DNA of 56,682 nt from positions 1 to 56,682 of the IMG/VR virus record IMGVR_UViG_3300032086_002223; one strand, 5' to 3'. This document shows, piece by piece, positions 17,256 through 35,179 of the stretch. The notes under the pieces are model-generated. The model did not search any database, had not been told where the DNA came from, and saw only the letters and a list, made by a program, of their open reading frames with translations. Origin of the DNA: a virus. Within the stretch, counting starts at the first letter, position 1. Every line of letters begins with the position of its first letter. The translations under genes and the position numbers were made by a program.

Positions 17256-18003
17256 TAATCGTATCGTCCTCAAGGGGTTCCAATGGAGGCATATGACCAG
17301 TAATGTCTTGATAGTTTAGGGGATATCCATCTTGGTCTAAATCAAATACCCATGGATAATATCTATTGGTTAATGACTCACCAATCTTTATTTGATTATT
17401 CATTTGATAATTGATATTGAAAGATATACTGTATCTTTCTTTTTGTGTCATGTTGGGTTCTACCATGTGCATTAACCCACTAGGGAACAACATTAATTTA
17501 CCAGTAATGGGTTGTTTATGAGATGACATTTGTATCATAGGTGATGGTGGCATGTCGTGTACTACCTTTTCGTCTGTGTCTATGAAATCAATATCTCCCT
17601 CGTCTCCATCTGCATGAATATAGAATACACCACTATACCAACAACCATTATGTAAGTGAGGTGAGTTCCAACACATATGTCCATTAATATTTGCCCAAGA
17701 GTTTCCAATCTGTACAGACACATCACCATTATTGAATCCATAAAAAGGTAAGACTTCATCATCAAACATACGTGTGATTCTGTTCATTAATTTTTGAAAT
17801 CTAGGATTTGATTCACATCCATCATTAGATTGCCATCCATTTCTATTAGATACCATTCTACCCTCATCCCTAGCTCTCATACCATCCATTTCATCTTTCA
17901 ATGATTGTAGGTATTCATATGATACACCCTGTCTCTCATGCAAGTTTTCATCTGTTAGTTGTCTATGAAAAACATAGTTTGGGAATAATAATTCTACTGC
18001 CAT
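17251..18003 (-). CDS. 2OG-Fe(II) oxygenase, TIGR02466-like
   Basis: 250-residue putative Fe(II)/2-oxoglutarate oxygenase. The iron-binding segment is SPHLHNGCWYSGVFYIHAD (H116 and H118 region) and the distal part is LFPSGLMHMVEP (H179), followed by ERYSISFN with R190 as the candidate 2-oxoglutarate ligand. This matches the TIGR02466 layout common in marine T4-like phages. The N-terminus names a conserved entry (LLFPNYVFHRQL). Substrate unknown. It follows the gene at 18007 by 3 nt in the accessory cassette. Confidence 0.85.
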   Translation of the reverse strand: MAVELLFPNYVFHRQLTDENLHERQGVSYEYLQSLKDEMDGMRARDEGRMVSNRNGWQSNDGCESNPRFQKLMNRITRMFDDEVLPFYGFNNGDVSVQIGNSWANINGHMCWNSPHLHNGCWYSGVFYIHADGDEGDIDFIDTDEKVVHDMPPSPMIQMSSHKQPITGKLMLFPSGLMHMVEPNMTQKERYSISFNINYQMNNQIKIGESLTNRYYPWVFDLDQDGYPLNYQDITGHMPPLEPLEDDTIT

Positions 18004-18882: not shown

Positions 18883-19552
18883 AATAATCTAGTTCATTCT
18901 CTAGTCTACATGCATCACCCCTTATAACTAAGGATTGTCTACATGCATATTCACATTTTTCATTTGGAGCATCTGCATTGTGTGGTATACTCCCATCAAA
19001 CATTAATAGTCTGTTTGGTTTATAATCTACTTGAGCAATTTGATGTTCTAAAAACTCTTCTTTAAAACCATCTATTTTTTTTGCTTCTTCGTTATAAAAT
19101 CTTAGTGGCCCACCCCAATCGTCTTCCCAGTATTCGGTGTTATACCATAAGAAAGATATATTAGTTTTATTATCGGGGGAACTATCTTCATGTATTGTTC
19201 CTTGAAGACCATAGGTCTGTCCATTCATACCTGCGTATTGAAAATTTTCCCACCTAAATCCAAATTCTGTTTGAAGTTTCCAATCTAGATATCTAATTAG
19301 ATAAGTATCTTGCATATGATAGGTGTGGTCTCTAATCTTTTTATCCTTACCCTCATAGAACGTTGCACCCCAAAATAGATGACGTATCTTACCATTTCTA
19401 TTTACTTGATTATTCTGAGCCCATATAGTTCTTGAGGTGAGTCTCCTCATATTATACATGATTTCATAGGTTGCCCAGTTATCTAAGACGTAAATTTTAT
19501 CTAAAGGAAAACTTTGTATCTTAAAGGGTTTATCGAGATATACAACTTCCAT
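18863..19552 (-). CDS. 2OG-Fe(II) oxygenase, 229 aa
   Basis: Third Fe(II)/2-oxoglutarate oxygenase in the window. Iron ligands are H121 and D123 in TIHEDSS and H191 in SIPHNADAP, with R205 in CRQSLVIRG for 2-oxoglutarate. Between them lies the conserved YWEDDWGGPLRFYN strand pair (141-154), typical of the prolyl-hydroxylase-like branch, where a Gly-Gly-x-Leu stretch precedes the distal His. Residues 35-60 (RRLTSRTIW) may belong to a substrate-specific N-terminal part. Member of the accessory cassette. Substrate unknown; carbohydrate or protein modification is plausible. Confidence 0.86.
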   Translation of the reverse strand: MEVVYLDKPFKIQSFPLDKIYVLDNWATYEIMYNMRRLTSRTIWAQNNQVNRNGKIRHLFWGATFYEGKDKKIRDHTYHMQDTYLIRYLDWKLQTEFGFRWENFQYAGMNGQTYGLQGTIHEDSSPDNKTNISFLWYNTEYWEDDWGGPLRFYNEEAKKIDGFKEEFLEHQIAQVDYKPNRLLMFDGSIPHNADAPNEKCEYACRQSLVIRGDACRLENELDYYANDRI

Positions 19553-19555: not shown

Positions 19556-20122
19556 TTACTGCTGACCTTGAAATTGCTGTACTGGAGGTAATTGTAATAG
19601 GTCGTCACAATAATCATCAAAGTCTTTGAGTTGGTCTTCTCTAGTCCTAGTGATTGTACCTACCACTTGTTCTAAGACACTATACGAACTATCTGCAAAT
19701 TCTAATACTCTTCTTGCATCTGACCTGTAAGGATGGTTTGAATCTTCTCTACCGATGTATGTAGCTTCATAAAGATTTTCAATTCTCATCTCGATACATA
19801 GTTGATAGATGTTCTTTGCAACCACTTCATACAAATCATCGATGTATTGGTTGTTTAAATTTGTTCCATCGGGTGCTTCTGCATCATCAATAAACTTCTC
19901 GATATTATCTCTATCTGAGTCTGTTAATGGATGTTTTTCGGATGCATCCCAGTTGGTTGGATTTACTTCTAAGATTTTGAATTCTTCTTGGTCGTATACG
20001 AGTCCTTCGTATTCAAAACCTAATTCGGGTTTGTCTACATTTTGATAAACAATTCTTAACCCAGTTTCTTTGATAATAACTAACGTATTAGTTGCATCAT
20101 ATATTAAAGCTCTATTTGCCAT
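19556..20122 (-). CDS. Acidic hypothetical protein, 188 aa
   Basis: Acidic protein with a short beta-rich N-terminal part (residues 5-60: LIYDATNTLVIIKETGLRI) and a helical rest with a Gln/Pro tail. No family recognised. Small acidic proteins encoded just after fibre genes are often fibre-assembly chaperones, and this gene follows the repeat-protein and glycosyltransferase genes, so that role is possible but unproven. It overlaps the glycosyltransferase gene by 11 nt and is followed 3 nt later by an oxygenase gene. Confidence 0.72.
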   Translation of the reverse strand: MANRALIYDATNTLVIIKETGLRIVYQNVDKPELGFEYEGLVYDQEEFKILEVNPTNWDASEKHPLTDSDRDNIEKFIDDAEAPDGTNLNNQYIDDLYEVVAKNIYQLCIEMRIENLYEATYIGREDSNHPYRSDARRVLEFADSSYSVLEQVVGTITRTREDQLKDFDDYCDDLLQLPPVQQFQGQQ

Positions 20123-21566
20123 TTTCTTTCACCTTTTTGTTTTCAATCTCTAAGAGATTTTTATAATAATTATATCTACCAATTTGTTGAACACTATCAT
20201 TAAAGTTTTCAATCCATGGCCCACCGTTTGTGTAATGAATCATTCTATGTTTCTTTACATTGTATGGTTCTTCTGAATAACCTTCAGTCCAACAACAATC
20301 ATCTTGAAGTTTTACCACGTTATCTGTCCATTTAAATTGATGTAGATATTGACCCGATTCTGTGTTTACAACTTCGGGTGTTAGTTTTCTACAATCCTTA
20401 TGACCATTGTTAAATATCATAAGACTTGACCATAGTTTTTTAGGATACCATACATTCTTTTCACCACCTAATTTTTCTGTAATACCTTTATCAGAAAAAT
20501 CATGATGGAAACATGCAACGGAATCAGTATGTCCTAGTGAATAGAATAAGTGTAACATATCTTCTGTGAAGATAAAGTCATCATCCACAAACATACTGAC
20601 ACCTTGATATTTCTCTAAGTATGGTATTAAGAATCTACTGTAAGTAAACTCTGTTGATTGGTTTGCGTAATCTCTAGTATACTCGGGAATCTTAGAAACG
20701 TCAAGTTTTTTAATCTTAACAAATGCATTCCATGGTACACTAGACAAGTCTCCCATTTTGTTGTTGTATCTTTCGATAGAATGTTGTATACTTTTTATAC
20801 AAACATCTGAGACTTCACCGTGTCTACTATCGTATCCTACGTATATAGTTGGAGTCTCTCCATTAAATAATGTATAGTGTAAGTAGTCGTTTGCTTCGGT
20901 ATAGTCACCTCTCATATCTCTGTTTTGATGAGCTTCAATAATACCTTGATTCCAACAATAGGATACATGATTCATATCGGGATAGAGATTATTTTTAAAT
21001 GTGTGAACTATCCACTCAGAGAATGATAGAGGTTTATGGTCATAACATACATCATATGCATCCCATACTAAACATTCAGTTTCCCATCTTTGTAAATATT
21101 TGATTGCAGAATATCTTCCAGTGCCGGGGTGGACAAAGTATCTAATCTCATCTGCATCTGCAGTAGGAGGCCAATACAACACACCTTGTGGCCCGTATTC
21201 AATTCCTTTGTTTCTGATATCTTGAACTAAGAAGTGTAATTTAGTTGCATGGTAGAGACGAGAAGAGTTCTCATCACCATTTATTCTTTCAAAGTCTTCT
21301 GCATCTACAGCTGCATCACCAACTTGTAATGCACGAAAGAAATCTCTAATTTTATGAGAAGAATCTTCTTGATAACTGACACCATACTTCTTGTGTAAGT
21401 CACCCAATGATACTATTTTGGGTTTGTATATACGTGTGATTTCATCAAACTTTTCTTTGATTTTAATCATCACTTCTTTCTTAGGTTTTGTTTTATTCAA
21501 CCCACCAAGATGGTCGTTGAAAGAACTTTTCACACTCACTGGGTCGGGTAAATCAATGTACTTCAT
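20112..21566 (-). CDS. ParB-like / glycosyltransferase fusion, 484 aa
   Basis: Two parts. Residues about 100-165 contain HPGTGRYSAIKYL (146-158), the nucleotide-binding-like box of ParB/sulfiredoxin-type domains. Residues about 238-470 read as a GT-A glycosyltransferase: IYVGYDSRHGEVSDVCIKSI opens the Rossmann-like fold and SMFVDDDFIF (324-333) carries the DxD metal/sugar-nucleotide site. Conserved cysteines and tryptophans follow near 425-455. It could glycosylate a virion protein, lipid or DNA base; the ParB-like part may be a kinase- or nuclease-related accessory. First gene of the cassette, with its own sigma70-type promoter. Confidence 0.82.
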   Translation of the reverse strand: MKYIDLPDPVSVKSSFNDHLGGLNKTKPKKEVMIKIKEKFDEITRIYKPKIVSLGDLHKKYGVSYQEDSSHKIRDFFRALQVGDAAVDAEDFERINGDENSSRLYHATKLHFLVQDIRNKGIEYGPQGVLYWPPTADADEIRYFVHPGTGRYSAIKYLQRWETECLVWDAYDVCYDHKPLSFSEWIVHTFKNNLYPDMNHVSYCWNQGIIEAHQNRDMRGDYTEANDYLHYTLFNGETPTIYVGYDSRHGEVSDVCIKSIQHSIERYNNKMGDLSSVPWNAFVKIKKLDVSKIPEYTRDYANQSTEFTYSRFLIPYLEKYQGVSMFVDDDFIFTEDMLHLFYSLGHTDSVACFHHDFSDKGITEKLGGEKNVWYPKKLWSSLMIFNNGHKDCRKLTPEVVNTESGQYLHQFKWTDNVVKLQDDCCWTEGYSEEPYNVKKHRMIHYTNGGPWIENFNDSVQQIGRYNYYKNLLEIENKKVKENGK

Positions 21567-21622: not shown

Positions 21623-24600
21623 TTAAGACGATATTGGAGATGCAGGCCATGTAGTTGTTCCATCCCATTTCTGAACCGTATTTCTATACGGTTGCTGATA
21701 TGCATATGGTTGTATACCTACTGCAACTTTTTGACGTGTTGTCTGTGCTGGTCTCTGTCTTGAAACTCTCTGCAATACCTGTACTCTAGTTGGTCTCTGT
21801 CTTGAAACTCTTTGTAGTACCTGTGTTCTAGCAGGTCTCTGTCTAGTTACATTTTGAAGAACTTGTACTCTAGCAGGTCTTTGTCTAGTTTCAATGTTAT
21901 TGTACTGATACCCCTGTTGTACTGGTCTTCTTCTTGATTCAATGTTATTGTACTGATAACCTTGCTGTACAGGACGTTGTCTACTCTCAGTATTATTGTA
22001 CTGATAACCTTGTTGCACTGGTCTTTGTCTATTTACAATATTGTTATATTGATAACCTTGTTGCACTGGTCTTTGTCTTGTAACAACATTATTATATTGA
22101 TAAGTTTGCTGAGTAGGTCTTCTTCTTGTTTCTTGAATATTTACCTGTACTCTTGCTGGTCTCTGTCTTGAAACTCTTTGCAGTACCTGAACTCTAGCTG
22201 GTCTTCTTCTAGTTTCAACATTGTTGTATTGATAATTCTGTTGAACAGGTCTTTGTCTTGTATCAACATTATTATATTGGTAACCTTGTTGTACAGGTCT
22301 TTGTCTAGACTCAACGTTGTTATATTGATAACTTTGTTGTACAGGTCTTCTTCTAGGTGAAGGTTGGTTTACCTGAACCCTAGCTGGTCTTTGTCTAGAC
22401 TCAACGTTGTTATATTGATAACTTTGTTGTACAGGTCTTCTTCTAGATTCCTGATTGTTATATTGATAACTTTGTTGTACTGGTCTTCTTCTAGACTCTA
22501 CATTATTGTACTGATAAGACTGTTGTACTGGTCTTCTTCTTGTTTCTTGAATATTTACCTGTACTCTTGCTGGTCTTTGTCTAGACACACGTTGCAACTG
22601 TTGTACTCTTGTTGGTCTACGTCTTGATACACGTTGCAGAACTTGAGTTCTTGCTGGTCTCTGTCTTGACACCCTCTGTAATTGTTGTACTCTAACTGGT
22701 CTACGTCTTGGTACCTGATTATGATACTGGTATGCCTGTTGTACAGGTCTTCTTCTTGGTACCTGATTATGATACGTATAAGTTTGTTGAGTAGAAGTTT
22801 GTACCCTATTATGATAAGTGTATGCCTGTTGTACTGGTCTTCTTCTAGGTACCCTATTATGATACTGATACGATTGTTGTACTGGTCTTCTTCTAGGTAC
22901 CCTATTATGATACTGATACGATTGTTGTACAGGTCTACGTCTAGGTACTCTATTATGGTAGGTATAAGCTTGTTGTACAGGTCTTCTTCTTGGTACCCTA
23001 TTATGGTAGGTATAAGCTTGTTGTACAGGTCTACGTCTTGGTACCTGATTATGGTAGGTATAAGTTTGTTGTGAACTTACCTGTACCCTGTTGTGATACT
23101 GATACGATTGTTGTACTGGTCTTCTTCTAGGTTCCTGATTATTATACTGGTAACTTTGTTGTACTGGTCTACGTCTAGGTACCCTATTATGATAGGTGTA
23201 CGGTTGTTGTGTAGGTCTTCTTCTAGGAACTCTATTATGATAAGTGTAAGGTTGTGGTTGTTGAGCAGGTTGTTGCATCTCATTCATCTGACCTTGTGGC
23301 CAGCTGACACCAGCAGTTGCAGCGAATGTTACTTGGTGAACTATTGACCTATCTCTACTTCTTGTAAATACATCACCTTTGTCTCTGACAAATAGTGGGA
23401 ATCCACCACCACCACCACCGCCAGGTGATTGTGACTGCATCTGACCTTGATGCTTCCAAGCAAATGTTGCAGTTTGACCACTCATAATCTTTGCACCAAA
23501 CTGTGAATAATATGGTGCTTGTCCTGCAAAAGGTATTGAGCCTTGTCTTTGTGGGTTAGGAATGTTTTGAACACTTGTCTGTGCAGAGTTAAAATCTGCA
23601 CCAAATTCAAAGTTTACACCCTCAAATCTTAAGGAACCCTGCCACTGTCTCTGTCCAGCAAACGGACTTCTATAATGATAACTATTAACACTTGTTGTTT
23701 GGTTCTGTGGGCCATTACCTACGTAATATGGTGCTTGTGTTCCTGAGAACTGAGCCTGTGGCCCTCTAAACATCATGTTTCCTCTAAAGGAATCTCTTTC
23801 ATGACCTTTACCATCGGGTCTAGCTGGGAAACTGTACTGACTAGCAGTTGAAATACGAGAATCACTCATGGGGAAACCAAAAAACTCGAAAGAAGGTAAT
23901 AATACAGTCCTTTGTCCATAAGGTGTCTCAACCTTAATACCAGCCATGTCACCACCTCCACCGTAAATATTTGCATAGTGGATGTAAGCAGTGTGTGCGT
24001 TGTTTCTTACTGTTACCTGTCTTGTTCTAGTTGTAGGTTGGTTCAACTGATACGATTGTTGTACTGGTCTTCTTCTAGGTTCCTGATTGTTATACTGGTA
24101 AGACTGTTGGACTGGTCTACGTCTTGGTACCCTATTGTGATAGGTGTACGGTTGTTGGACTGGTCTTCTTCTTGGTACCCTCTGTAATTGTTGTACTCTA
24201 ACTGGTCTTCTTCTAGATTCCTGATTGTTATATTGATAACTTTGTTGTACAGGTCTTCTTCTAGGTTCCTGATTGTTATATTGATAACTTTGTTGTACAG
24301 GTCTTCTTCTAGGTTCCTGATTGTTATATTGATAACTTTGTTGTACAGGTCTTCTTCTAGGTTCAGTGTTATTATATTGATAACTTTGTTGTACTGGTCT
24401 TCTTCTAGGGCCAGTGTCATTATATTGATAACTTTGTTGTACTGGTCTTCTTCTAGGTGAAGGTTGGTTTACCTGAACTCTAGTTGGTCTTTGTCTAGAT
24501 TCAGTGTTATTATATTGATAACTTTGTTGTACTGGTCTTTGTCTAGATTCAGTGTTATTATATTGATAACTTTGTTGTGTACTTGCCTGTACCCTGTTGT

Positions 24601-25744
24601 GATACTGATAAGATTGTTGTACACTAGTTTGTACCCTGTTATGATACTGATAAGCTTGTTGAGTAGAAGCTTGAACTCTATTATGATATTGATAAGTCTG
24701 TTGAGTTGATGCTTGTCCTCTGTTATGATAAGTATATCCTTGTTGTACTGGTCTCTGTCTTGTTACCCTATTATGGTACTGATATGCCTGTTGTACTGGT
24801 CTACGTCTTGGTATCCTATGATGGTAGGTATAAGCTTGTTGTACAGGTCTACGTCTAGGTACTCTATTGTGGTACGTATATGTTTGTTGTGTACTTGTTT
24901 GTATCCTATTATGATAAGTGTATGCCTGTTGTACAGGTCTACGTCTTGGTACTCTATGGTGGTACGTATATGTTTGTTGTACTGGACGTTGTCTACCTAC
25001 CCTGTTATGGTACTGATACGATTGTTGTACAGGTCTACGTCTAGGTACTCTATTGTGATAAGTGTACGTTTGTTGAGTAGAAGTTTGTACCCTATTATGG
25101 TACTGATACGTTTGTTGTGTAGAAGCCTGACCCCTATTATGGTAAGTGTACCCCTGTTGTACTACACGTTGTCTATTAACCCTGTTATGATACTGGTATG
25201 ATTGTTGTACTGGTCTCTGTCTTGGTACCCTATTGTGATAGACATAAGTCTGTTGTACTGGTCTCTGTCTTGGTACCCTATTGTGATAGGTGTATCCTTG
25301 TTGTACTGGTCTCTGTCTTGTTACCCTATTATGGTAACTATAAGTTTGTTGGACTGGTCTACGTCTCTGTACCCTGTTATGGTACGTATAGTTTTGTTGA
25401 GTATTCTGTTGAACACGATTGTGATAAGTGTAATCTTGTTGAACACTCGTTTGAACACGATTGTGATACTGATACGTTTGTTGTGTAGATGCTTGTACTC
25501 TGTTATGATATTGATACGACTGTTGCACAGTGAATTGGTAAGGTTGTTGGAAGTTATAAGGTCTTGTTCCAACTGCTGGTCTAGTAGCAATTACTTGGGC
25601 TGGCATCTGTCCTGATGCCTTTATCCATCCAGTAGGTGTCTTTGTATAGACAGAATCAACTGCCGACCATTCTGTTGGGGATGTCTTTACCCAACTACCT
25701 GTTGTATTTACCCACCCCGTAGGGTTCTTAATTCGTTGTGCCAT
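21623..25744 (-). CDS. Giant Arg/Gln/Tyr repeat protein, 1373 aa
   Basis: Residues 1-65 are a non-repetitive head with repeated Trp/Thr motifs (TGWVNTTGSWVKTSPTEW), resembling short phage-tail attachment modules. Residues 66-571 are about 33 tandem units and 832-1337 about 34 more, each 14 or 16 residues, of forms such as PRRRPVQQSYQYHNRV, QTSTQQTYTYHNRV and SRQRPARVQVLQRV. Between them (585-831) is a non-repetitive domain with YGGGGD, PSFEFFGFPM, APYY, NPQRQG and a Gly7 run. The tail (1344-1373) is aromatic. There are almost no acidic residues in the arrays, so the protein is very basic. Location among fibre genes suggests a virion surface protein or adhesin; no family is recognised. Confidence 0.88.
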   Translation of the reverse strand: MAQRIKNPTGWVNTTGSWVKTSPTEWSAVDSVYTKTPTGWIKASGQMPAQVIATRPAVGTRPYNFQQPYQFTVQQSYQYHNRVQASTQQTYQYHNRVQTSVQQDYTYHNRVQQNTQQNYTYHNRVQRRRPVQQTYSYHNRVTRQRPVQQGYTYHNRVPRQRPVQQTYVYHNRVPRQRPVQQSYQYHNRVNRQRVVQQGYTYHNRGQASTQQTYQYHNRVQTSTQQTYTYHNRVPRRRPVQQSYQYHNRVGRQRPVQQTYTYHHRVPRRRPVQQAYTYHNRIQTSTQQTYTYHNRVPRRRPVQQAYTYHHRIPRRRPVQQAYQYHNRVTRQRPVQQGYTYHNRGQASTQQTYQYHNRVQASTQQAYQYHNRVQTSVQQSYQYHNRVQASTQQSYQYNNTESRQRPVQQSYQYNNTESRQRPTRVQVNQPSPRRRPVQQSYQYNDTGPRRRPVQQSYQYNNTEPRRRPVQQSYQYNNQEPRRRPVQQSYQYNNQEPRRRPVQQSYQYNNQESRRRPVRVQQLQRVPRRRPVQQPYTYHNRVPRRRPVQQSYQYNNQEPRRRPVQQSYQLNQPTTRTRQVTVRNNAHTAYIHYANIYGGGGDMAGIKVETPYGQRTVLLPSFEFFGFPMSDSRISTASQYSFPARPDGKGHERDSFRGNMMFRGPQAQFSGTQAPYYVGNGPQNQTTSVNSYHYRSPFAGQRQWQGSLRFEGVNFEFGADFNSAQTSVQNIPNPQRQGSIPFAGQAPYYSQFGAKIMSGQTATFAWKHQGQMQSQSPGGGGGGGFPLFVRDKGDVFTRSRDRSIVHQVTFAATAGVSWPQGQMNEMQQPAQQPQPYTYHNRVPRRRPTQQPYTYHNRVPRRRPVQQSYQYNNQEPRRRPVQQSYQYHNRVQVSSQQTYTYHNQVPRRRPVQQAYTYHNRVPRRRPVQQAYTYHNRVPRRRPVQQSYQYHNRVPRRRPVQQSYQYHNRVPRRRPVQQAYTYHNRVQTSTQQTYTYHNQVPRRRPVQQAYQYHNQVPRRRPVRVQQLQRVSRQRPARTQVLQRVSRRRPTRVQQLQRVSRQRPARVQVNIQETRRRPVQQSYQYNNVESRRRPVQQSYQYNNQESRRRPVQQSYQYNNVESRQRPARVQVNQPSPRRRPVQQSYQYNNVESRQRPVQQGYQYNNVDTRQRPVQQNYQYNNVETRRRPARVQVLQRVSRQRPARVQVNIQETRRRPTQQTYQYNNVVTRQRPVQQGYQYNNIVNRQRPVQQGYQYNNTESRQRPVQQGYQYNNIESRRRPVQQGYQYNNIETRQRPARVQVLQNVTRQRPARTQVLQRVSRQRPTRVQVLQRVSRQRPAQTTRQKVAVGIQPYAYQQPYRNTVQKWDGTTTWPASPISS
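21734..23251 (-). repeat. Coding tandem repeats, C-terminal array
   Basis: About 34 degenerate units of 42 or 48 bp encoding residues 832-1337 of the 1373-residue protein. The 5' half is mainly PRRRPVQQ-type units ending HNRV; the 3' half is richer in RVQVLQRV and YQYNNVE-type units, so unit types are regionally sorted. Confidence 0.93.
24032..25549 (-). repeat. Coding tandem repeats, N-terminal array
   Basis: About 33 degenerate 42- or 48-bp units encoding residues 66-571 of the 1373-residue protein. The first two thirds end in HNRV or HHR, the last third in NNTE or NNQE. Some neighbouring units are nearly identical (24240-24350 region), pointing to recent duplication. Confidence 0.93.
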
Positions 25745-25757: not shown

Positions 25758-28061
25758 TTAAGAGTAAGTTATCCATACATCTCCAACTTGCCCAGCACCT
25801 GATGTGGGGGCAGAAGAATGTATGAAAGTGTTTCGAAATGCTCCGTCTGAAGCACCAATGGTTGTAAAACCTGTAGTACCTTTACCAGTAACTGATAATG
25901 CATCCCCGATAGTTACATCATCGGGTAGACCTATTGTTACTGTTGCATTTTCACTACCTGAACCTGAGACTGTAATCTCATTTGCAGTTCCTGATATTCC
26001 TGATACGTAATTTCCTGTTGTGTCTGTTGCTAATGCAACTGAGTTTGCTTGTATAGTTGTGCTTATGGATATACCTGCTGAACCGTCAAAGTTTGCAGTA
26101 CCAACAACATCTCCTGAAAGTGCTATTGCTCTTGTCGTTGCTAATTTAGTAGCTGTAGATGCGTTACCTGTTACATCACCAGTGACATCACCATAAAGTC
26201 TTCCTGCTTGTATGTTTGCATTAGTGAGTGTTAATGCACCAGTAGATGCACCTGTTGCCGTTGTGGTTGCAAATCTAACTCTATCTGAACTTTCATCCCA
26301 ACCTACGAAAACATTATCACCAGTAGAACCTCTTTCAAGAATAAGACCTAAGTCATTAGAGTTTGCACCCGTGTTACCTGAACCAAGTTCAATCAATGCA
26401 TCTTCGATTGTTGTATTTGTTGCACTGTTTGTTACTGTAGAACCATTGACTGTTAGGTCACCAGTGACTACTACGTCACCACTTGCATTTACGTTTGCGA
26501 ATGTTACATTACTGTTTGTTGCAACTGCCTGACCGATACTAAATGCACCACCTGAATATGATACACCAGTTCCAGCACTTAGATGAGCTCTAACTTCTGA
26601 TGCACTTGGGCCTGTATATGTGATAACACCAGTAGATGAATTGTATGCAAGTGAACCATCTCCACCTGAATCTGTTACTGATATAGCTCCTCTTGCATCT
26701 GAATCTGCATACATTGTAGGTTCTGAGTATGAGATTACACCTGATGTTGAGTTATATGCTAAATCACCACTTACTGAAATTGAACTTCTTGCATTTGCAG
26801 TTGTGAATTTAGTTACACTAAATGCACCTGTTGATGAGTTATAAGATAGGTCACCAGCTGCAGATAATAAACCTCTTACTTCTGCGTCTGTTCTTTCTGT
26901 AAATGAGAATGCACCAGTTGAACTATTATATGATAAATCACCACTTGCAGATACTAATCCTCTGATACTTGCATCTGATAAACCAGCAAGTGTAAGTGTT
27001 CCAGCTGCATCGTCATATGTTGATGTGATGTTTGTTCCACCAATTATCAATCCATTTACGATGTCTTCTATTTCTTCTTCAGTTTTTCCTGAAGAGTTGA
27101 TTGTAAGTGTTCCGTTTGCATCGTCATATGATGTTGTTATGTTAGTACCAGCAGTGACTAATGCATTTACTCTGTCGTCTACTCTTTCGTTTGTGAAAAA
27201 TAGATTTCCATTTTCTGATAAATCACCTGTGTCTAAAGTAACTGAACCACCAAGGGATACGGTGTTTGAGTTAATTGATAATGAACTGTTAGAAAGTTTT
27301 CCGTTAACAATAGAACCTGCTAACATATCATTTGTGATACCACCAGCTTTTACTTGAACTGTATCTGATGCAAGTTCTAAAGAACTGTCATCTACTTGAA
27401 CTGCAAGTGTTACTGCACCTGAAGTTCCACCACCAGTCAAACCATCTCCTGCTGTTACAGCTGTGATGTCTGCAGAGTTTGTGTTTGCAACTGTAAGTGT
27501 ATTAGCTACATCATCATATGTTAATGATACACCAGTTCCTGCTGTAAGTAATCCATTTACTCTATCGTCTACTCTTTCGTTTGTAAAATAAAGGTTTGTT
27601 GACCCTTCTGTAATCTCGTCTGTATTATCTTTACCCGCTACTTGAGAATCTACATATGCTTTAATCGATTGTTGTGTTGCAGCGTGAGTTGCAGAGTTTG
27701 AAGCCATGTTGTCTTCATCTTTGAAATCGATTGCGATGTCGTCTGCATTTACAGTGATACCTGTACCAGCACCAACATTAAGTGTTGCATCACCTGAAGT
27801 TGCAGTACCTGTTAAACCAGCACCAGCGTTAACTCCAGTGATATCACCGACATTACCTGTAATTGTTAGTTGGTTAGCTGCATCATCATATGATAATGAG
27901 ATACCTGAACCTGCTTGTAAAAGACTTGCAACTCTATCGTCCACACTTTCATTAAGTGCAGTTGCAGAAATGGAACCTACATATGTTCCGTCTGATTGGA
28001 TGACCTCTGTTCCACTAACTGATAGTCCATTCTTGACATTAAAATTCTTTTCACCTGCCAT
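25758..28061 (-). CDS. Fibre-like beta-repeat protein, 767 aa
   Basis: Contains repeated segments of the form EGSTNLYFTNERVDDRV followed by AGTGVSLTYDDVANTLT (about residues 150-200, 285-330), then a series around 355-480 built on LSYNSSTGAFSF. Residues about 500-650 have a DVVVTGDLTVNGSTV-type beta-helix pattern. The end, SAPTSGAGQVGDVWITYS, is the sort of short C-terminal motif found on tail-fibre-like proteins. Probably a trimeric beta-rich tail or whisker fibre. It overlaps the 111-residue gene by one base (TAATG). Receptor unknown. Confidence 0.85.
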   Translation of the reverse strand: MAGEKNFNVKNGLSVSGTEVIQSDGTYVGSISATALNESVDDRVASLLQAGSGISLSYDDAANQLTITGNVGDITGVNAGAGLTGTATSGDATLNVGAGTGITVNADDIAIDFKDEDNMASNSATHAATQQSIKAYVDSQVAGKDNTDEITEGSTNLYFTNERVDDRVNGLLTAGTGVSLTYDDVANTLTVANTNSADITAVTAGDGLTGGGTSGAVTLAVQVDDSSLELASDTVQVKAGGITNDMLAGSIVNGKLSNSSLSINSNTVSLGGSVTLDTGDLSENGNLFFTNERVDDRVNALVTAGTNITTSYDDANGTLTINSSGKTEEEIEDIVNGLIIGGTNITSTYDDAAGTLTLAGLSDASIRGLVSASGDLSYNSSTGAFSFTERTDAEVRGLLSAAGDLSYNSSTGAFSVTKFTTANARSSISVSGDLAYNSTSGVISYSEPTMYADSDARGAISVTDSGGDGSLAYNSSTGVITYTGPSASEVRAHLSAGTGVSYSGGAFSIGQAVATNSNVTFANVNASGDVVVTGDLTVNGSTVTNSATNTTIEDALIELGSGNTGANSNDLGLILERGSTGDNVFVGWDESSDRVRFATTTATGASTGALTLTNANIQAGRLYGDVTGDVTGNASTATKLATTRAIALSGDVVGTANFDGSAGISISTTIQANSVALATDTTGNYVSGISGTANEITVSGSGSENATVTIGLPDDVTIGDALSVTGKGTTGFTTIGASDGAFRNTFIHSSAPTSGAGQVGDVWITYS

Positions 28062-28396
28062 TAGAATGTACCTCCATCAACTGTTGGTAATGATAGTTCA
28101 CCGTTTGAACTATTATAAGATAAGTTTGTTTCACCCGATGCTAAAGATATAGAACCTCTAGCTCTTGCGTCTGTGAAGTAAAGGTTTGATGACCCTTCTG
28201 ATAAATCGTCTGTGTCTTTAGATGCAAATGAAGTATTAAACTGTGACCCCGTAAAGTACAGGTTTGTTGACCCCTGTGCAAGATTATCGGTAGTCAAAGT
28301 TGACACTGCAGCTGCAACAACTTTACCACTAGAACTGATTACTTCAGAAGAACCAACGGTCAAACCATAATCGATTGTAAAGTTTGCTGTTGCCAT
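28061..28396 (-). CDS. Short fibre-module protein, 111 aa
   Basis: A miniature of the neighbouring fibre: MATANFTIDYGLTVGSSEV head, two EGSxNLYFT modules (about 41-50, 67-75), then LSYNSSNGELSLP and a terminal VDGGTF. The last five residues recur at the ends of two other proteins here (30576 and 32325 genes). Coupled to the 767-residue fibre by TAATG, so the two may form one structure; it could be a split-off N-terminal module. A switch-like pair of hairpins precedes it. Confidence 0.78.
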   Translation of the reverse strand: MATANFTIDYGLTVGSSEVISSSGKVVAAAVSTLTTDNLAQGSTNLYFTGSQFNTSFASKDTDDLSEGSSNLYFTDARARGSISLASGETNLSYNSSNGELSLPTVDGGTF

Positions 28397-28400
28397 TAAA

Positions 28401-28443
28401 AATCCCCTGTTTGTATGATGGTATTTAGGGGATTAACATCCCC
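28401..28443 (-). promoter_or_regulatory. Overlapping hairpins and weak late box before the 111-aa gene
   Basis: On the minus strand three segments GGGGAT (28438-28443), AATCCCC (28428-28434) and AGGGGATT (28401-28408) allow two exclusive stems: first with second (TGTTAA-type short loop) or second with third (18-nt loop). The third segment holds the only SD-like AGGGG before the ATG at 28396 and is followed by TTTTT. A CCTAAATA box (28422-28429) lies between. It may be an attenuator, a translational switch, or a promoter with incidental symmetry. Confidence 0.45.
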
Positions 28444-28451
28444 AAACTCAT

Positions 28452-29198
28452 CTACACTGTTAATAAATTTCTACTTATTTTAAATACTGTTGAACTCGAA
28501 GACGAAGGTGTGACTTTTAACCTGACATCACCTGAATTTGTATCTACTGATGTTGTAAATAACTCTCCATTTGTGTGTACACTTCCATACACTTCATGTG
28601 TTGCACTTGATGAATTATGTATTACCATAATTTCACATGCATGAAAATTTGTTCCTTGTGATGCCTGTACGTGATACTTTCCACTTCTATATGATAGTGA
28701 TGGGAAACTATCTAGTACTACCTCGTCTGTTGCAGTAGTAGTCAATGTATTGTTTGCATCCATCCTTAAGTTCTGTAAGTTTAGAGGCCCTACTGCAGTT
28801 AATGTACCTGTTGATTCTAAATCACCCACTTTTAGGTCTGCATATGACCATCCAGTTCCTTCGGTATTAACGGTTGTTGTCGGTTCTATTTCTAGACCAT
28901 CAAATAATTTCCATGTAGAATCTGTTGCATCTCTAAACAAACCTGAGAATTCACTTGCACCACCATCTGATAAACCGTCATTATAGTTACCATACATTCC
29001 AAAATCAATCAAATCGTCTACTGTATTTGCATTAGCAAGTTCAAACATAGATGTATCAACCGATTTAGTAACCGAATCTATGGTTGTTGTTGTTCCTAAT
29101 ACTGTCAAACCACCTGATATAGAAACATCTCCAGTAACTTCTAAGTCACCTATTATTTCTTCACCGTAGTCTGCTAAAAATTTCTTTTTTATACCCAT
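28452..29198 (-). CDS. Fibre-like structural protein, 248 aa
   Basis: N-terminal half has the GDLEVTGDVSISGGLTVLGTT beta-helix pattern of T4-like fibre proteins (15-40) and a middle with SEFSGLFRDATDSTWKLFDGL. Residues about 165-248 form a domain with HACEIMVIHNSSSATHEVYG and GDVRLKVTPSSSSSTVF that also ends the two upstream proteins (29299, 29724). Preceded by a CATAAATA box and a strong terminator, so it starts a new late unit. A virion surface role is inferred. Confidence 0.82.
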   Translation of the reverse strand: MGIKKKFLADYGEEIIGDLEVTGDVSISGGLTVLGTTTTIDSVTKSVDTSMFELANANTVDDLIDFGMYGNYNDGLSDGGASEFSGLFRDATDSTWKLFDGLEIEPTTTVNTEGTGWSYADLKVGDLESTGTLTAVGPLNLQNLRMDANNTLTTTATDEVVLDSFPSLSYRSGKYHVQASQGTNFHACEIMVIHNSSSATHEVYGSVHTNGELFTTSVDTNSGDVRLKVTPSSSSSTVFKISRNLLTV

Positions 29199-29229
29199 TT
29201 AATATAATCCATAATTTTGAATCTAATAC

Positions 29230-29237
29230 TATTTATG
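29230..29237 (-). promoter_or_regulatory. Late-type promoter for the 248-aa gene
   Basis: CATAAATA on the minus strand, just after the terminator at 29252-29281 and 31 nt before the ATG at 29198. Confidence 0.65.
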
Positions 29238-29251
29238 CATTTTGTAAGGGT

Positions 29252-29281
29252 AAAAAAAAGGGGAACCGAAGTTCCCCTTTT
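29252..29281 (-). terminator. Rho-independent terminator after the 136-aa gene
   Basis: Minus strand AAAAGGGGAAC, TTCG loop, GTTCCCC, then eight T. Perfect stem, 18 nt after the stop codon of the 29299 gene, closing the fibre-like unit read from about 32314. Confidence 0.93.
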
Positions 29282-29298
29282 CTCGTTCTATGAACTGT

Positions 29299-29709
29299 TT
29301 ACGCGTCTACTACTGTTCTGTCAAATTTAATCAATGTGCTAGCATTTGATGCTGGGGTTACACGTAATCTTACGTCACTCCCTGAAATATCTGCATCGAA
29401 TGTTGCCAAAGATGTTGACTTCAATGTACCGTACTGAGTTAAAGTAACTGTAGTACCATCATGTACTAACATAACTTCTGTAGAATGGTAATCCGTACCT
29501 TTAGACATTACTACAATATATCTTGCAGCCCTATATGTATTTTTAGCAAAGGTATCTAATGAGAATATATCTGTAGATGTTCTAGTAGATGTATTCCTCT
29601 TAGTATTTTTGGTTTCAACTGCTTTTGCTGTAACAATTTTATCATTGTCCACATCGAATTGAATCCCACGGATTAGTTCAGCTAGTTTAAATGCATTTGA
29701 TTTTGCCAT
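29299..29709 (-). CDS. Structural protein sharing C-terminal domain, 136 aa
   Basis: Short N-terminal part with AFKLAELIRGIQFDVDNDK, then almost entirely the shared domain: YRAARYIVVMSKGTDYHSTEVMLVHDGT (read in parts) and SGSDVRLRVTPASNASTLIKFDR. That domain is also found at the ends of the 274- and 248-residue proteins. Probably a small virion decoration or fibre-tip protein. It lies directly upstream of a strong terminator. No enzyme motif. Confidence 0.78.
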   Translation of the reverse strand: MAKSNAFKLAELIRGIQFDVDNDKIVTAKAVETKNTKRNTSTRTSTDIFSLDTFAKNTYRAARYIVVMSKGTDYHSTEVMLVHDGTTVTLTQYGTLKSTSLATFDADISGSDVRLRVTPASNASTLIKFDRTVVDA

Positions 29710-29723
29710 GTTCTAATCCTCCC

Positions 29724-30548
29724 TTATGAATGTCTAATTTGGAACGTGTCTATTGTGGTATTAGTGTTAGCAGGAGTTACGAGTAATCTCATATTTCCTG
29801 AACTAACATCTGCACTCAATGTAAACAAAGAGTTACCTGTATGGACATCACCAAACTGTGAATAATATGCGTTAGTACCATCATTTGCAATGATAACATC
29901 ACAAGAGTGTGTTCCTGCTGAAGCATGTTGTGCTGTCACAAAGAACCTTATACTCTTAATTGATGTTGCGACCTGTTGTAAAACTTGGTCGGCTGTCGTT
30001 GCAGAGAACGATGATTCCGTTCTGTTACCTTCAACTAAGTCACTGGTATTGGAGATATTATTAATTACTAATGTATCTCCATTTACTGCGTTTTCTGTTA
30101 AAGTGATAGTGGATGAGTTAGTAGTTGTATAGTCTGTACCACCCCCAATCAACTTAACACCGTTTAAGTATACGTTTTCACCACCTGATGTATATGATAA
30201 TGAATTACCATTGTCATCATTTCCAGTAAATACTGTTTGGTTTCCTGTTACACTATATGTGAACGTGGAATACACATTACCTGCGTTAGCAAATGATAGT
30301 GTTCCACTCCCATCGGTTTTAAGTACTTGGTTTGCCGAACCATCACTGGTTGGAAAAGAGTAAGCATCATTGATTGTCAAACTTGTTGGGTTTGAACCTA
30401 ATTCGACTACAGCTGCAGAACCGTCATTTTTCTCAGTGTAAAACCTACCGTGATAGGTATTTACTGCCAGTTCCCCTAGTGATAAATCACCAGTGCTAGG
30501 AACAGCATTCTGAGTAGATGAACGTTTAAACTGTATTACTGTTGCCAT
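29724..30548 (-). CDS. Fibre-like structural protein, 274 aa
   Basis: N-terminus MATVIQFKRSSTQNAVPSTG followed by LGELAVNTYHGRFYTEKNDG is a common phage fibre/whisker entry and is shared with the 533-residue protein just upstream. Residues 60-90 have GSANQVLKTDGSGTLSF. Residues about 95-175 (YSVTGNQTVFTGND... ending NGDTLVINNI) are a beta domain also seen in three other proteins. Residues about 195-274 are the HSCDVIIANDGTNAYY / MRLLVTPANTNTT domain. A mosaic of modules found elsewhere in the window. Confidence 0.8.
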   Translation of the reverse strand: MATVIQFKRSSTQNAVPSTGDLSLGELAVNTYHGRFYTEKNDGSAAVVELGSNPTSLTINDAYSFPTSDGSANQVLKTDGSGTLSFANAGNVYSTFTYSVTGNQTVFTGNDDNGNSLSYTSGGENVYLNGVKLIGGGTDYTTTNSSTITLTENAVNGDTLVINNISNTSDLVEGNRTESSFSATTADQVLQQVATSIKSIRFFVTAQHASAGTHSCDVIIANDGTNAYYSQFGDVHTGNSLFTLSADVSSGNMRLLVTPANTNTTIDTFQIRHS

Positions 30549-30575
30549 GCTTCCTCCAGTTGTTAACTACTACTA

Positions 30576-32177
30576 TTAAAATGTTCCACCGTCAATTGCA
30601 GTAACGGTTACGGCACCACTTGACACAGTGAAGTTAGCACTAGAGAAAGATGCAACACCCTTATTAGAGGAAGTAGCGTCTTCAACTGCTAGTGTAATTG
30701 CACCAGCACCATTAGTGATTGTCATTGCTTCACCAGCTGTCAATGTAGCTGCATCAAATACTCCACCTGAAGTGTCACCAATTAAGATTTGACCATCGGT
30801 TGGAGCTGAACCAGCATATGAATCGATTGAACCACTCAATGATAGAGCTGCACCTTCGACATTACCGAATGCAACGTTACCTAATGTACCTGAGAATACT
30901 GAACTTGTGTCTGTTGCGTCTGCAATAAACTTAAATTTAGCATCTGTATCGTCCATACCAAAGAAACCAACTTTAGCACCACTTGAGTTGTACTTAAATT
31001 TGATACCTCTGTCTAGGTTGTCGTCTGCAGAATCATCACCGATTTCAAATACTGGGTCGGCAACTGATACTGTTGATGAGTTTACAGTTGTTGTTGTACC
31101 ATTAACTGACAAGTTACCTGTTACTGTAAGGTTACCTGAAGTTGTTAATGTTGCAGTTGTGATGTCGTCTGAAATTAAGTTACCACCAACTGTTAAGTTG
31201 TTTCCGACAGTTACGTTATTAGGTAGACCAACTGTAATAGTTTGTCCACTTGCTGAAGTTTCAATTTCATTTGCAGTACCTTGTACTGTAAGTGATTGTG
31301 AATCTAAATCGACTGCACCTGTTCCACTGTCACCTGCTACGTCTAAGTCTTGTGCTGTTACGTTAGTATCAACATAATCTTTAACTGCTGCTGAAGTAGG
31401 AATAGTTGTGTCGTTGTCGTTTGAACCGATACCTTCTGATTCGATTACAACCGCTGCAGCTGCTAATTTACCAAATGTTATTTGTCCATTTGCAATGTGA
31501 GCTGTGTCGATTGAACCATCTACTAGATGTTCTGAATCAATAGAATCGTCTGCGATTTTAGCACCGTTAACTGCGTCTGCAGCTATCATGCCATTTTCAA
31601 CTACACCTGAACCGATTGTCATTGCACCATTAGATGCAAGTGTTACGTCACCTGAAACTGCTACGTTATCAAATGAGTCTGAACCGTCATGGACAAGAAT
31701 GTGTCCTGATGCTGGTGCTGAAATATCTGTATCAGATGCACCTGCGATTGATGAAGTTGTTGATACGAAAGACAATGCTCCTGAACCATCGGTTCCAAGT
31801 ACTTGTCCGTTTGAACCATCTGAAGATGGTAATGTTAATGTAAGGTTTGAAGCTACTGAATCGGGTGCTTTCAATGCAACGAAATTTGTTCCGTTGTCTG
31901 AATCTTCTCTCAACTTGATAGATGCACCTGCTGTTGCACCGTTACCAACTATGAAGTCTGAAGGTGTTGGGGTTGAACCCACCAACATATCCGTGTAGTA
32001 CTTACCACCAATTTCGTGGACGACTGCTTGGGTACCATCATGTGACTCAATGAAGAGAGTAGCATTTGCACCAGACCCTGCTCTATCCTGAACGTAGGCT
32101 AATTCACTTTCTGCTAAATCAGAAATTGCGGGATTAGCACTTCCAGTAGACCTTTTAATCTGAATTACTGTTGCCAT
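30576..32177 (-). CDS. Fibre-like structural protein, 533 aa
   Basis: Starts MATVIQIKRSTGSANPAISD with ESELAYVQD, paralogous to the 274-residue protein start. The middle (115-290) has GSNGQVLGTDGSGALSF and repeated DSEHLVDGSIDTAHIANGQI segments typical of phage tail-fibre repeats, and 325-370 has the NLTVTGNLSVNGTTTTV beta-helix pattern. It ends AIDGGTF. A very strong Shine-Dalgarno (AGGAGAAAAAA) precedes the ATG, so abundant expression is expected. Likely a virion fibre or surface protein. Confidence 0.85.
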   Translation of the reverse strand: MATVIQIKRSTGSANPAISDLAESELAYVQDRAGSGANATLFIESHDGTQAVVHEIGGKYYTDMLVGSTPTPSDFIVGNGATAGASIKLREDSDNGTNFVALKAPDSVASNLTLTLPSSDGSNGQVLGTDGSGALSFVSTTSSIAGASDTDISAPASGHILVHDGSDSFDNVAVSGDVTLASNGAMTIGSGVVENGMIAADAVNGAKIADDSIDSEHLVDGSIDTAHIANGQITFGKLAAAAVVIESEGIGSNDNDTTIPTSAAVKDYVDTNVTAQDLDVAGDSGTGAVDLDSQSLTVQGTANEIETSASGQTITVGLPNNVTVGNNLTVGGNLISDDITTATLTTSGNLTVTGNLSVNGTTTTVNSSTVSVADPVFEIGDDSADDNLDRGIKFKYNSSGAKVGFFGMDDTDAKFKFIADATDTSSVFSGTLGNVAFGNVEGAALSLSGSIDSYAGSAPTDGQILIGDTSGGVFDAATLTAGEAMTITNGAGAITLAVEDATSSNKGVASFSSANFTVSSGAVTVTAIDGGTF

Positions 32178-32590: not shown

Positions 32591-32923
32591 CTATCTTGTT
32601 ACGCCGGGTGTTATTATTGCTTGTCCCTCGATAACTCGGGTCTTTACACCTGAACTATCTGTTATTATTAAATCATATACATACCTACCAGCTTTTAGAC
32701 CTGTGGTTTGTGTATCTGTTAAAGTAAGTGTTACCTTACCAGTTGATGGAGTTATAGATGTACTAAACGTTTCTGCAATGGTTGTGGAACCATATGTTTT
32801 TCTTATTTGTGCAGCTGCAGAATATCCATTCAAGTCTATGATATTATCACTAGTATCAGTGACATCGATAGTAACTTCGTAATCGGTGCCTTGGTCTATA
32901 AATATGTTTGCTATGATTGCCAT
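32591..32923 (-). CDS. Ig-like beta-sandwich protein, 110 aa
   Basis: Alternating hydrophobic strands throughout, with DYEVTIDVTDTSDNIIDLNGYSAAAQIR near 14-40 and GRYVYDLIITDSSGVKTRVIEG near 80-100. The layout is like the Ig-fold N-terminal modules of phage baseplate or receptor-binding proteins. A TATAAATA box ends 5 nt before the ATG and there is no Shine-Dalgarno, so the message should be leaderless. It begins the fibre-like unit that runs to the terminator at 29252. Confidence 0.75.
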   Translation of the reverse strand: MAIIANIFIDQGTDYEVTIDVTDTSDNIIDLNGYSAAAQIRKTYGSTTIAETFSTSITPSTGKVTLTLTDTQTTGLKAGRYVYDLIITDSSGVKTRVIEGQAIITPGVTR

Positions 32924-32928
32924 ATAAC

Positions 32929-32936: not shown

Positions 32937-32941
32937 CAACT

Positions 32942-35179
32942 TTAAGTGTTCGGGTCTGTCAATTGTGAAGTTGGTACACTTTGGTGAGTCTTTTTCAATG
33001 TACCACTGTCATTTATATAGACTTCATCCATTTTTCTTAATGTACCAGCATCGTTAATCCATATCTGTTTGATTTTTGCAAGAGGCCCGATTGTTCTTGT
33101 TGATGGGAACGGTTGTCGTACTGGTCTACGTCTTGGTATCTGATTATGATAGTTATAAGTCTGTTGCACAGGTCTACGTCTAGGTACCCTATTGTGATAC
33201 GAATAAGTTTGTTGTAAATTTTTCTGTCTTGATACTCTATTGTGATATGTGTAATCTTGTTGCACACTTCTTTGTCTATCTACTCTATTGTGGTATTGAT
33301 ACGACTGTTGCACACTACGTTGTCTTGATGACCTTTGTAATACCTGAACCCTAGCTGGTTTTTGTCTAGTTTCTTGTGCATTTATTGGTACTCTAACAGG
33401 TCTTCTCTTTGACTCACTATTGTTATACTGGTATGTTTGTTGTACTGGTCTTTGTTTAGTTATAACCTGATTCACCTGAACTCTTGTTGGTCTTTGTCTT
33501 GTTACGGCTTCATTTACTTGAACTCTAGCAGGTCTTTGTCTTGACACACGTTGTAATACCTGAACCCTAGCTGGTTTTTGTCTTGATACTACTTCATTAA
33601 CCTGTACTCTTACTGGTCTTCTTCTATCTTCATCTACGTTTCTCTGAGTTCTTACAGGTCTACGTCTTGGTACCTGATTATGATACGAATAAGTTTGTTG
33701 AGTAGTCACCTGTTTTTCATTTAGAGTTCCACTTGGGAATGCCGGTGTTGGTGTTGATGATGCAGCCAAAGTAACACCTGAGACAAATGTCTCTTGTCTT
33801 GCATATCCTCTAGGTCTTATCCTTACAAAATAACCATCATTATCTCTCAATCGAAGAGGCACCTGGCCACCTGGCGTTGGTGCCGCTTGAACCTGTGATG
33901 TAAAGTCTCCTACATTTTCCCATGCAAGTTTAATTTGTTGACCACTATTAAGTTTAATAGCATACTGAGAAGCATTTGGATGTTGTGAAAGAAACTCAAC
34001 TCCCTGAGTACCTTGTCCTTGAGGGTGTCCTTGTCTTTGTGGATTAGGTACACTTTGGTTTTGAGGTGCTGGTGAAGCTGGACTAAAGTCAGCTGCAAAG
34101 ATTGTATTTTCTCCAACATACCTTAATCTAGAATTCCATTGTCTTTGTACTTGACCGCTGGGGAATTGAACACCTGAGTAATTCCAAGTATTAGCAACAG
34201 CAGGTGCTACAGTATTTTGCATCCCAGTTCCAGTATAGTAAGGAGCTGCTGTTTGTGTGAATGAAGCAGTTGGCCCCCTGAAGAACATTGCACCCCTGAA
34301 CGAATCACCTTCATGAAAATTTCCTGACCTTGTACCTGTTGGTGTAGGAAAAGGATATTGTTGAGGTATACCATTTATTTGTTGTTGCATTGGAAAACCC
34401 ATAAACTCGAAAGAAGGTATGGTGCCTGTTACTTGACCATATGGTGTCTCCATCTTAATAGCCGCAGCATCACCCCCACCACCATATACACGCATATAAT
34501 GAATGTAATTTGAGTGTGCTTGTGACTGAACGGGTCTCTGTCTATTCTCAGTATTGTTATACTGGTACGACTGTTGAGTATTCTCTTGTGTTCTATTATG
34601 ATACACATACACCTGTTGAGTATTCTGTTGAACACGATTGTGATAAGTGTAATCTTGTTGAGTAGATGTCTGTACTCTGTTATGATACTGGTATGTTTGT
34701 TGAGTATTCTGTTGAACACGATTATGATAAGTGTAATCTTGTTGAACACTCGTTGGAACACGATTGTGATACTGATAATCTTGTTGTACAGGTCTCTGTC
34801 TAGCTACTCTATTATGATAAGTGTATGTTTGTTGAGTATTTTGTTGTACTCTATTATGGTAAGTATATGGTTGTTGAGTATTTTGTTGTACCCTGTTATG
34901 ATACTGATATGATTGTCTAGCAGGTCTCTGTCTTGTTACAACATTATTGTACTGATAGGTTTGTCTAGTAGGTCTCTGTCTTGTTACAGCATTATTGTAC
35001 TGATAGGTTTGTCTAGTAGGTCTCTGTCTAGATTCTACGTTGTTATACTGATAACTTTGTTGAACAGGTCTTTGTTTGTTTTCTTGATTGTTGTACTGAT
35101 ATGACTGTTGAACAGGTCTTCTATCATTGAAGGGTTGTTGAAAACTAGTCCCTGTATTGATATATGTTTCATTTGACAT
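32942..35179 (-). CDS. Arg/Gln/Tyr repeat protein, 745 aa
   Basis: Smaller paralog of the 1373-residue repeat protein. Head 1-18, then about 13 units (19-218), a central domain (about 224-490), about 14 more units (491-691) and a tail with WINDAGTLRKMDEVYINDSGTLKK, a motif style found at ends of phage tail proteins. The central domain shares YGGGGD, PSFEFMGFPM, DSFRG, FFRGP, APYYTG, RQWNSRL, NPQRQG and SGQ blocks in the same order with the larger protein. Units are again 14 or 16 residues. The arrays are basic, though with a few more acidic positions. A Shine-Dalgarno (GAGGTG) precedes the ATG. Role inferred as virion surface. Confidence 0.87.
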   Translation of the reverse strand: MSNETYINTGTSFQQPFNDRRPVQQSYQYNNQENKQRPVQQSYQYNNVESRQRPTRQTYQYNNAVTRQRPTRQTYQYNNVVTRQRPARQSYQYHNRVQQNTQQPYTYHNRVQQNTQQTYTYHNRVARQRPVQQDYQYHNRVPTSVQQDYTYHNRVQQNTQQTYQYHNRVQTSTQQDYTYHNRVQQNTQQVYVYHNRTQENTQQSYQYNNTENRQRPVQSQAHSNYIHYMRVYGGGGDAAAIKMETPYGQVTGTIPSFEFMGFPMQQQINGIPQQYPFPTPTGTRSGNFHEGDSFRGAMFFRGPTASFTQTAAPYYTGTGMQNTVAPAVANTWNYSGVQFPSGQVQRQWNSRLRYVGENTIFAADFSPASPAPQNQSVPNPQRQGHPQGQGTQGVEFLSQHPNASQYAIKLNSGQQIKLAWENVGDFTSQVQAAPTPGGQVPLRLRDNDGYFVRIRPRGYARQETFVSGVTLAASSTPTPAFPSGTLNEKQVTTQQTYSYHNQVPRRRPVRTQRNVDEDRRRPVRVQVNEVVSRQKPARVQVLQRVSRQRPARVQVNEAVTRQRPTRVQVNQVITKQRPVQQTYQYNNSESKRRPVRVPINAQETRQKPARVQVLQRSSRQRSVQQSYQYHNRVDRQRSVQQDYTYHNRVSRQKNLQQTYSYHNRVPRRRPVQQTYNYHNQIPRRRPVRQPFPSTRTIGPLAKIKQIWINDAGTLRKMDEVYINDSGTLKKTHQSVPTSQLTDPNT
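33107..33709 (-). repeat. Coding tandem repeats, C-terminal array of the 745-aa protein
   Basis: About 14 units of 42 or 48 bp (residues 491-691). RVQVLQRV-type units cluster in the first half and YHNRV-type in the second. Confidence 0.9.
34526..35125 (-). repeat. Coding tandem repeats, N-terminal array of the 745-aa protein
   Basis: About 13 units of 42 or 48 bp (residues 19-218), mainly QQNTQQxYxYHNRV and RQRPxxQxYQYNN forms. Confidence 0.9.

Follow-up and report, generated by a model that had tools for sequence, protein, structure and literature searches.

In the crystal structure of T4 gp37, the chains run out and return, giving antiparallel strands, while the repeats of the adenovirus and gp5/gp12 shafts form turns and hydrophobic cores along one chain direction. 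In the parts of PMC7029224 cited here, the region from VrlC to the neck genes of pelagimyophages is the host recognition cluster, and the domains named for fibre candidates are YHYH, concanavalin A, collagen repeats, and YadA. Here, we analyze a T4-like marine myovirus, represented by a 56,682-base virus record (the window, meaning this whole stretch of DNA), and focus on two of its proteins, SHORT and LONG, which are probably paralogous fibre proteins of one new type, antiparallel and with coded pairing.

Genomic setting and parts of SHORT and LONG

The portal protein of the window is 57% identical to its counterpart in Methylophilales phage Melnitz and 53-55% identical to those of pelagiphage Mosig and cyanophages. 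The gene order is as in T4: the baseplate genes come first (gp5-, gp6-, and gp8-like genes plus a wedge protein), followed by a 2210-aa protein, a 908-aa fibre, and SHORT; these are followed by a 110-aa fibre-assembly-like protein, mostly acidic fibres, LONG, and a glycosyltransferase-like gene, and finally by two 2OG-Fe(II) oxygenases with two further genes, ahead of the neck genes. By position and size only, the 2210-aa protein may be the VrlC counterpart (compare P-HM1). Both array genes lie between the VrlC/baseplate region and the neck genes, where the host recognition cluster is found. The genes of this row are as follows:

17251..18003, minus strand: 2OG-Fe(II) oxygenase (PF13759 / TIGR02466), in the gene row of LONG and the glycosyltransferase
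18863..19552, minus strand: 2OG-Fe(II) oxygenase (PF13640), in the same gene row
20112..21566, minus strand: glycosyltransferase-like protein, 484 aa; C-terminal half resembles phage glycosyltransferases
21623-25744, minus strand: LONG, 1373 aa
25758..32177, minus strand: mostly acidic fibre-like genes (533, 274, 136, 248, 111, and 767 aa), between SHORT and LONG
32591..32923, minus strand: 110-aa protein after SHORT; PHROG 3304 ("L-shaped tail fiber protein assembly"); same place in related loci
32942-35179, minus strand: SHORT, 745 aa

The order of the fibre-like genes at 25758..32177 is conserved in relatives, and in 35 of the 37 informative loci, some of which are overlapping views of one contig, the glycosyltransferase comes after the LONG site. 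The N-terminal half of the glycosyltransferase-like protein is unmatched. The oxygenases (17251-19552) and the glycosyltransferase (20112-21566) are conserved after the LONG site together with the arrays and are possible modifiers of the Pro/Tyr/Asn repeats. Most fibre genes at 25758-37929 of the window encode very acidic proteins, with a pI of about 4.1 and charges down to -77, in contrast to the very basic array proteins, which have a net charge of about +58 (SHORT, pI 10.6) and +182 (LONG, pI 11.5).

An earlier sequence-only reading had recognized 32942-35179 as a 745-residue open reading frame with a plan of head, repeat array, core, repeat array, and tail, and had noted that SHORT and LONG bracket the fibre-like genes at 25758-32923. 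These descriptions were right, with the frame on the minus strand. The reading had also counted about 27 units in SHORT; parsing gives 26 full units, with 13 paired ones to either side of the core and repeat periods of 16 and 14 residues. LONG has 32 paired units per side and one unpaired unit adjoining its core, and the paired arrays span about 195 residues in SHORT and about 490-540 in LONG. The parts are:

35111..35179, minus strand: SHORT head, residues 1-23, MSNETYINTGTSFQQPF; common to the A genes of relatives (MSDEIYVNIGTSFQQPYQ)
34529..35110, minus strand: SHORT N-array, residues 24-217; 13 units of 14/16 aa; putative outgoing strand
33707..34516, minus strand: SHORT core, residues 222-491; paralogue of the LONG core; putative tip domain
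33119..33700, minus strand: SHORT C-array, residues 494-687; 13 units, mirror of the N-array (i + j = 711); putative returning strand
32945..33118, minus strand: SHORT tail module, residues 688-745, IGPLAKIKQIWINDAGTLRKMDEVYINDSGTLKKTHQSVP; putative virion anchor
25526..25744, minus strand: LONG head, residues 1-73, NPTGWVNTTGSWVKTSPTEWSAVDSVYTKTPTGW; putative virion anchor
24062..25525, minus strand: LONG N-array, paired part, residues 74-561; 32 units
23270..23995, minus strand: LONG core, residues 584-825; paralogue of the SHORT core
21746..23209, minus strand: LONG C-array, residues 846-1333; 32 units, mirror of the N-array (i + j = 1407)
21626..21745, minus strand: LONG C-terminus, residues 1334-1373; ends KWDGTTTWPASPISS and matches the end of B genes in relatives (RWDG..QWPA..IS)

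The proposed paralogy of the cores was confirmed, with 47% identity in a search within the window (172.9 bits, E=2.2e-52) and 48% in a global alignment. Both cores contain the nine blocks listed in the sequence-only reading, YGGGGD, PSFEF, DSFRG, FRGP, APYY, RQW, ADF, NPQRQG, and SGQ, in one order. At the base of LONG, the N-terminus (first ~33 residues) overhangs the C-terminus, and at the base of SHORT, the C-terminus (about 35 residues) overhangs the N-terminus; since these two overhangs have similar short motifs in common, a single base anchor per fibre is plausible. Both proteins would sit on the virion, LONG held by its head and SHORT by its tail module. The SHORT tail module has a dN/dS of 0.08 and weakly matches PHROG 13729 (unknown function). 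The dN/dS of the arrays is 0.06-0.16 in LONG and 0.08-0.27 in SHORT, compared to 0.19-0.27 for the cores, and in most comparisons (dS 0.7-1.5) the arrays are more strongly constrained. Repeat peptides of identical sequence mostly have different coding DNA, which together with the purifying selection argues that the arrays are neither chance nor relaxed slippage.

Searches of Pfam, PHROGs, and NCBIfam gave nothing useful for SHORT and LONG, and neither has a fibre match in Pfam or PHROGs. Fibrinogen-binding protein (PF08017) was rejected as a candidate at 18.2 bits against the Pfam cut-off of 50, a likeness of composition only. By tblastn, no core, array, or end module was found in cultured phages, although arrays could be masked in this search by the filter for low complexity. 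Scanning the ORFs in parts of Melnitz, Mosig, P-HM1, and two single-cell viruses likewise yielded no such arrays, a genome contig scan yielded no relative, and a PDB sequence search found no relative of SHORT or LONG. In the phage literature, we found no account of such arrays or of complementary repeat fibres, and to our knowledge, no protein fibre is built by a pairing code so readable.

Mirrored arrays and complementary units

In both proteins, the C-array is an exact mirror of the N-array in unit order. The SHORT unit lengths read 16,16,16,16,14,14,16,14,14,14,14,14,16 on both sides, and in mirror order the unit lengths match in 13/13 pairs of SHORT and 32/32 pairs of LONG, compared to only 7/13 and 20/32 in same-direction order. 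At equal composition, mirror order would arise by chance once in 1,716 (SHORT) and once in 225,792,840 (LONG). The facing units also differ in kind. The 16-residue HN units (QQxYxYHNxVxRxRPV) face 16-residue NN units (QQxYQYNNxExRxRPV), and 14-residue R units (RVQVLQRVSRQRPA) lie opposite the 14-residue Y units (QQxYxYHNRVQxST), which brings Tyr-rich halves face to face with Arg-rich halves. Across five proteins, facing units are complementary in 122 of 122 pairs (77 H16:N16 and 45 Y14:R14), where the 16-mer typing classes were defined after inspection of the data, one atypical pair (unit 27 in relatives) was typed by a lenient rule, and the independent events are fewer than the counts because all five proteins belong to the window clade, as orthologues or paralogues. 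Comparison of orthologues revealed eight unit positions that changed type, all of them on both sides and none on one side only (one in SHORT and seven in LONG, the latter lying in one block and perhaps reflecting few events).

The residues themselves are consistent with paired strands. Proline spacing is even in 90% of cases, compared to 47% in shuffles; over a range of at least 30 residues, the distances at which aromatic residues recur are almost all even as well. This two-residue periodicity with few breaks suggests extended beta strands, possibly within a multi-chain shaft. With full extension and 0.33 nm per residue, shaft lengths would come to ~65 nm (SHORT) and 160-180 nm (LONG). In a register one residue off exact unit alignment, 142 of 679 facing positions place Arg/Lys against an aromatic residue or His, and only nine in the window proteins place Arg/Lys against Arg/Lys; this charge-aromatic facing is suggestive of pairing rather than proof of it. 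AlphaFold monomer models were unusable, with pLDDT of 31.6 for the core (5 sequences) and 26.8 for the whole of SHORT (2 sequences).

Split genes and variable cores in relatives

Direct searches found few close relatives in IMG/VR. With the neighbouring 110-aa gene and the glycosyltransferase as baits for the wider family, we recovered about 30 uncultured marine T4-like contigs in which both sites carry the same end modules and other repeats, built of units of 6 and 8 residues (for example, RQPFTY, RNPFTY, and RVPYIANA). As in the window, the SHORT site precedes the 110-aa gene and the LONG site precedes the glycosyltransferase. The end modules shared across the family are an MSxExYIN head and a KVKxVxVNxSGT tail at the SHORT site, and a KTPTGW head and a WDGxxxWP end at the LONG site. 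Outside the window clade, every LONG site with both ends recovered consists of two adjacent genes, as do most SHORT sites: gene A encodes head, array, and core, while gene B encodes array and end module. In the window clade, A and B are fused at both sites, which produces the array-core-array plan. The array of one relative (L038:7955-9634) matches PHROG 4041 and 33328, both of unknown function, a hint of similar repeats in reference phages that the filtered tblastn missed.

The mirror of N-array and C-array is found again between A and B, more weakly at the SHORT site of several relatives. At the split LONG site of 13 lineage representatives, 83-96% of the prolines of A coincide with those of the mirrored B, shifted by a constant 35-36 residues relative to the start of A. 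Each LONG A ranks its own B first (13/13 lineages), with an average of 0.90 for its own partner and 0.51 for foreign ones, compared to 0.34-0.65 in cross-site and 0.39-0.62 in self-mirror controls. The types of paired units share 0.69 bits of mutual information, compared to 0.07 +- 0.015 in within-locus shuffles; whenever a B unit has Glu before Pro (37 units), the A unit opposite carries Arg at -2, compared to 38% in the remaining pairs, and no Glu lies opposite another Glu. Length changes are paired as well. Between loci L038 and L040, A and B each differ by a 16-aa indel that falls where the partner position predicts; L066 and L068 differ by an 18-aa indel in both genes, ~20 residues off the expected place, a displacement that is tolerable because gap placement in repeats is ambiguous to that extent. 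The one clear exception is a 20-aa insertion near residue 470 of the L044 LONG A (relative to L040), for which B has no counterpart. Among ten lineages of relatives compared at the SHORT site, about six give a clear signal without gaps, and with gaps the own partner ranks first in 7/10; single-gene SHORT proteins of relatives failed the mirror test without gaps and showed a modest preference for the own partner in the gapped test.

Profile comparison detected mostly no homology between cores across lineages, so the core appears to be a variable slot. Within each of L066, L067, and L068, the SHORT and LONG cores are 87-92% identical, compared to about 47% between the L066 and L068 genomes. This suggests that the two sites can be replaced or converted together, as if the cores had been copied between sites in concerted evolution. 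In the window clade, identity is 44-47% between sites and 60-83% between orthologues, which points to an older split of SHORT and LONG. Because the putative tips are variable and exchangeable, host recognition would fit the cores, and we infer that the core binds the host surface.

Several A proteins of relatives end in Hint (intein-like) domains (L070:16464-17768; L072:993-2753 and 10516-12123; L081:9440-11263; and others in L052, L053, L062, L073, L074, and L079). These mostly follow a glycine run (GGGGC...HN) and in most cases have a non-nucleophile after HN; each is predicted to be a self-processing domain at the putative fibre tip. The shared YGGGG junction prompted us to consider the window core as a diverged Hint domain; this was ruled out by profile comparison, in which the window core does not align with the Hint domains of relatives.

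Proposed architecture, alternatives, and known systems

Antiparallel pairing is well supported from sequence alone, through mirror order, complementary unit types, compensatory changes, A/B matching, and even spacing, and the proteins are probably a family of mirror-coded antiparallel fibre proteins. In the proposed architecture, the N-array would run outward from the base to a core at the far end, and the C-array would run back beside it, antiparallel and in fixed register, so that each protein would be a zipper-like hairpin. In most relatives, the outgoing strand would be gene A and the returning strand gene B, which in the window are fused. Array length would set fibre length, so that the host-recognition gene cluster would encode two fibres of different length, both with antiparallel extended strands and a core at the tip. 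The sequence-only reading had proposed two lengths of one type of structure, which gains support from the homologous cores, the shared plan, and the different paired array lengths; its suggestion of concentric parts finds none. It had also taken the core as the functional domain and the arrays as its arms; the arrays read better as matched strands of one antiparallel shaft that would end in the core. The mirror between arrays and the two-gene split in relatives are beyond what that reading could see. Altogether, it is likely that these proteins constitute a new fibrous class made of two strands of 200-550 residues, from one chain or two genes, which recognise each other by a discrete, complementary unit alphabet in mirror order from which partner, register, and length can be read, and with tip cores that are swappable cassettes, in some lineages Hint domains that might process strand ends at the tip.

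Other explanations need to be weighed against coded pairing. The low-complexity Q/R/Y/P/N composition, and charges of +58 and +182 beside acidic fibres, would suit disordered, sticky, basic linkers of the mussel-foot or extensin type that tether the cores or coat the acidic fibres, with the mirror otherwise caused. The repeats of such linkers could be modified by the neighbouring enzymes, given the position of the glycosyltransferase after LONG in nearly all informative loci and of the oxygenases in the same row. We regard this joint reading as unlikely: disorder predicts neither mirrored order, complementary types, paired indels, nor strongly even spacing, and the oxygenase cluster is also present in phage Mosig, where the scanned stretches yielded no arrays. 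It is very improbable that the mirror records DNA history, by inverted duplication or recombination between arrays, instead of physical pairing. Repeat arrays do recombine easily, but neither gene contains inverted DNA repeats of 20 bases or more, which rules out a DNA palindrome as the cause of the mirror; moreover, peptides of one kind in reversed order are not what an inverted duplication would leave behind, the facing units are different peptides (14y and 14r), and the rule holds between two separate genes.

The strands could also pair antiparallel in something other than a virion fibre, such as a secreted or intracellular scaffold or a nucleic acid-binding protein that acts during packaging. 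The strongly basic character of the proteins would agree with this, and we found no virion proteomics for these uncultured phages; however, the genes lie among fibre genes, between baseplate wedge and neck and beside a fibre-assembly-like protein, and the cores vary between lineages like host-recognition domains, which makes a role of this kind improbable.

If SHORT and LONG are indeed fibres with coded pairing, they would use a natural protein pairing code nearly as legible as base pairing, in which strand partners, register, and length are predictable from sequence, and fibre design could draw on them as naturally occurring, programmable antiparallel strands. Uncultured ocean phages would have a host-recognition device with swappable tips, and low-complexity proteins that look structureless would become testable structures. 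The mirror test could be applied to other "disordered" repeat proteins in search of hidden partners.

Among known systems, the host recognition cluster of pelagimyophages and cyanomyophages occupies the same place in T4-like genomes and, in the parts of PMC7029224 cited here, also combines fibres with glycosyltransferases; those parts describe no mirror and no such arrays. The glycine-rich adhesins of the S16 gp38 type (PMC6851490) likely share the task of host adhesion and have a comparable genome position, but their polyglycine sandwich is absent from the window proteins, whose cores contain only short G4-G7 runs. Phage Mosig encodes, in a comparable place (L008:4681-6231), a glycine-rich fibre-like protein annotated as hypothetical that resembles polyglycine adhesins. 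The adenovirus triple beta-spiral and the gp5/gp12 beta-helix also set short repeats in a long shaft, from which SHORT and LONG differ by strongly even spacing, Q/R/Y/P composition, and two mirrored strands. The distal needle of T4 gp37 (PMC6957217, PMC3004832) is likewise a thin fibre end with the receptor-binding part at its tip. The PDB search detected no gp37-type sequence similarity in SHORT or LONG, and the family differs from gp37 in its hundreds of residues of complementary-unit repeats, often encoded by two genes.
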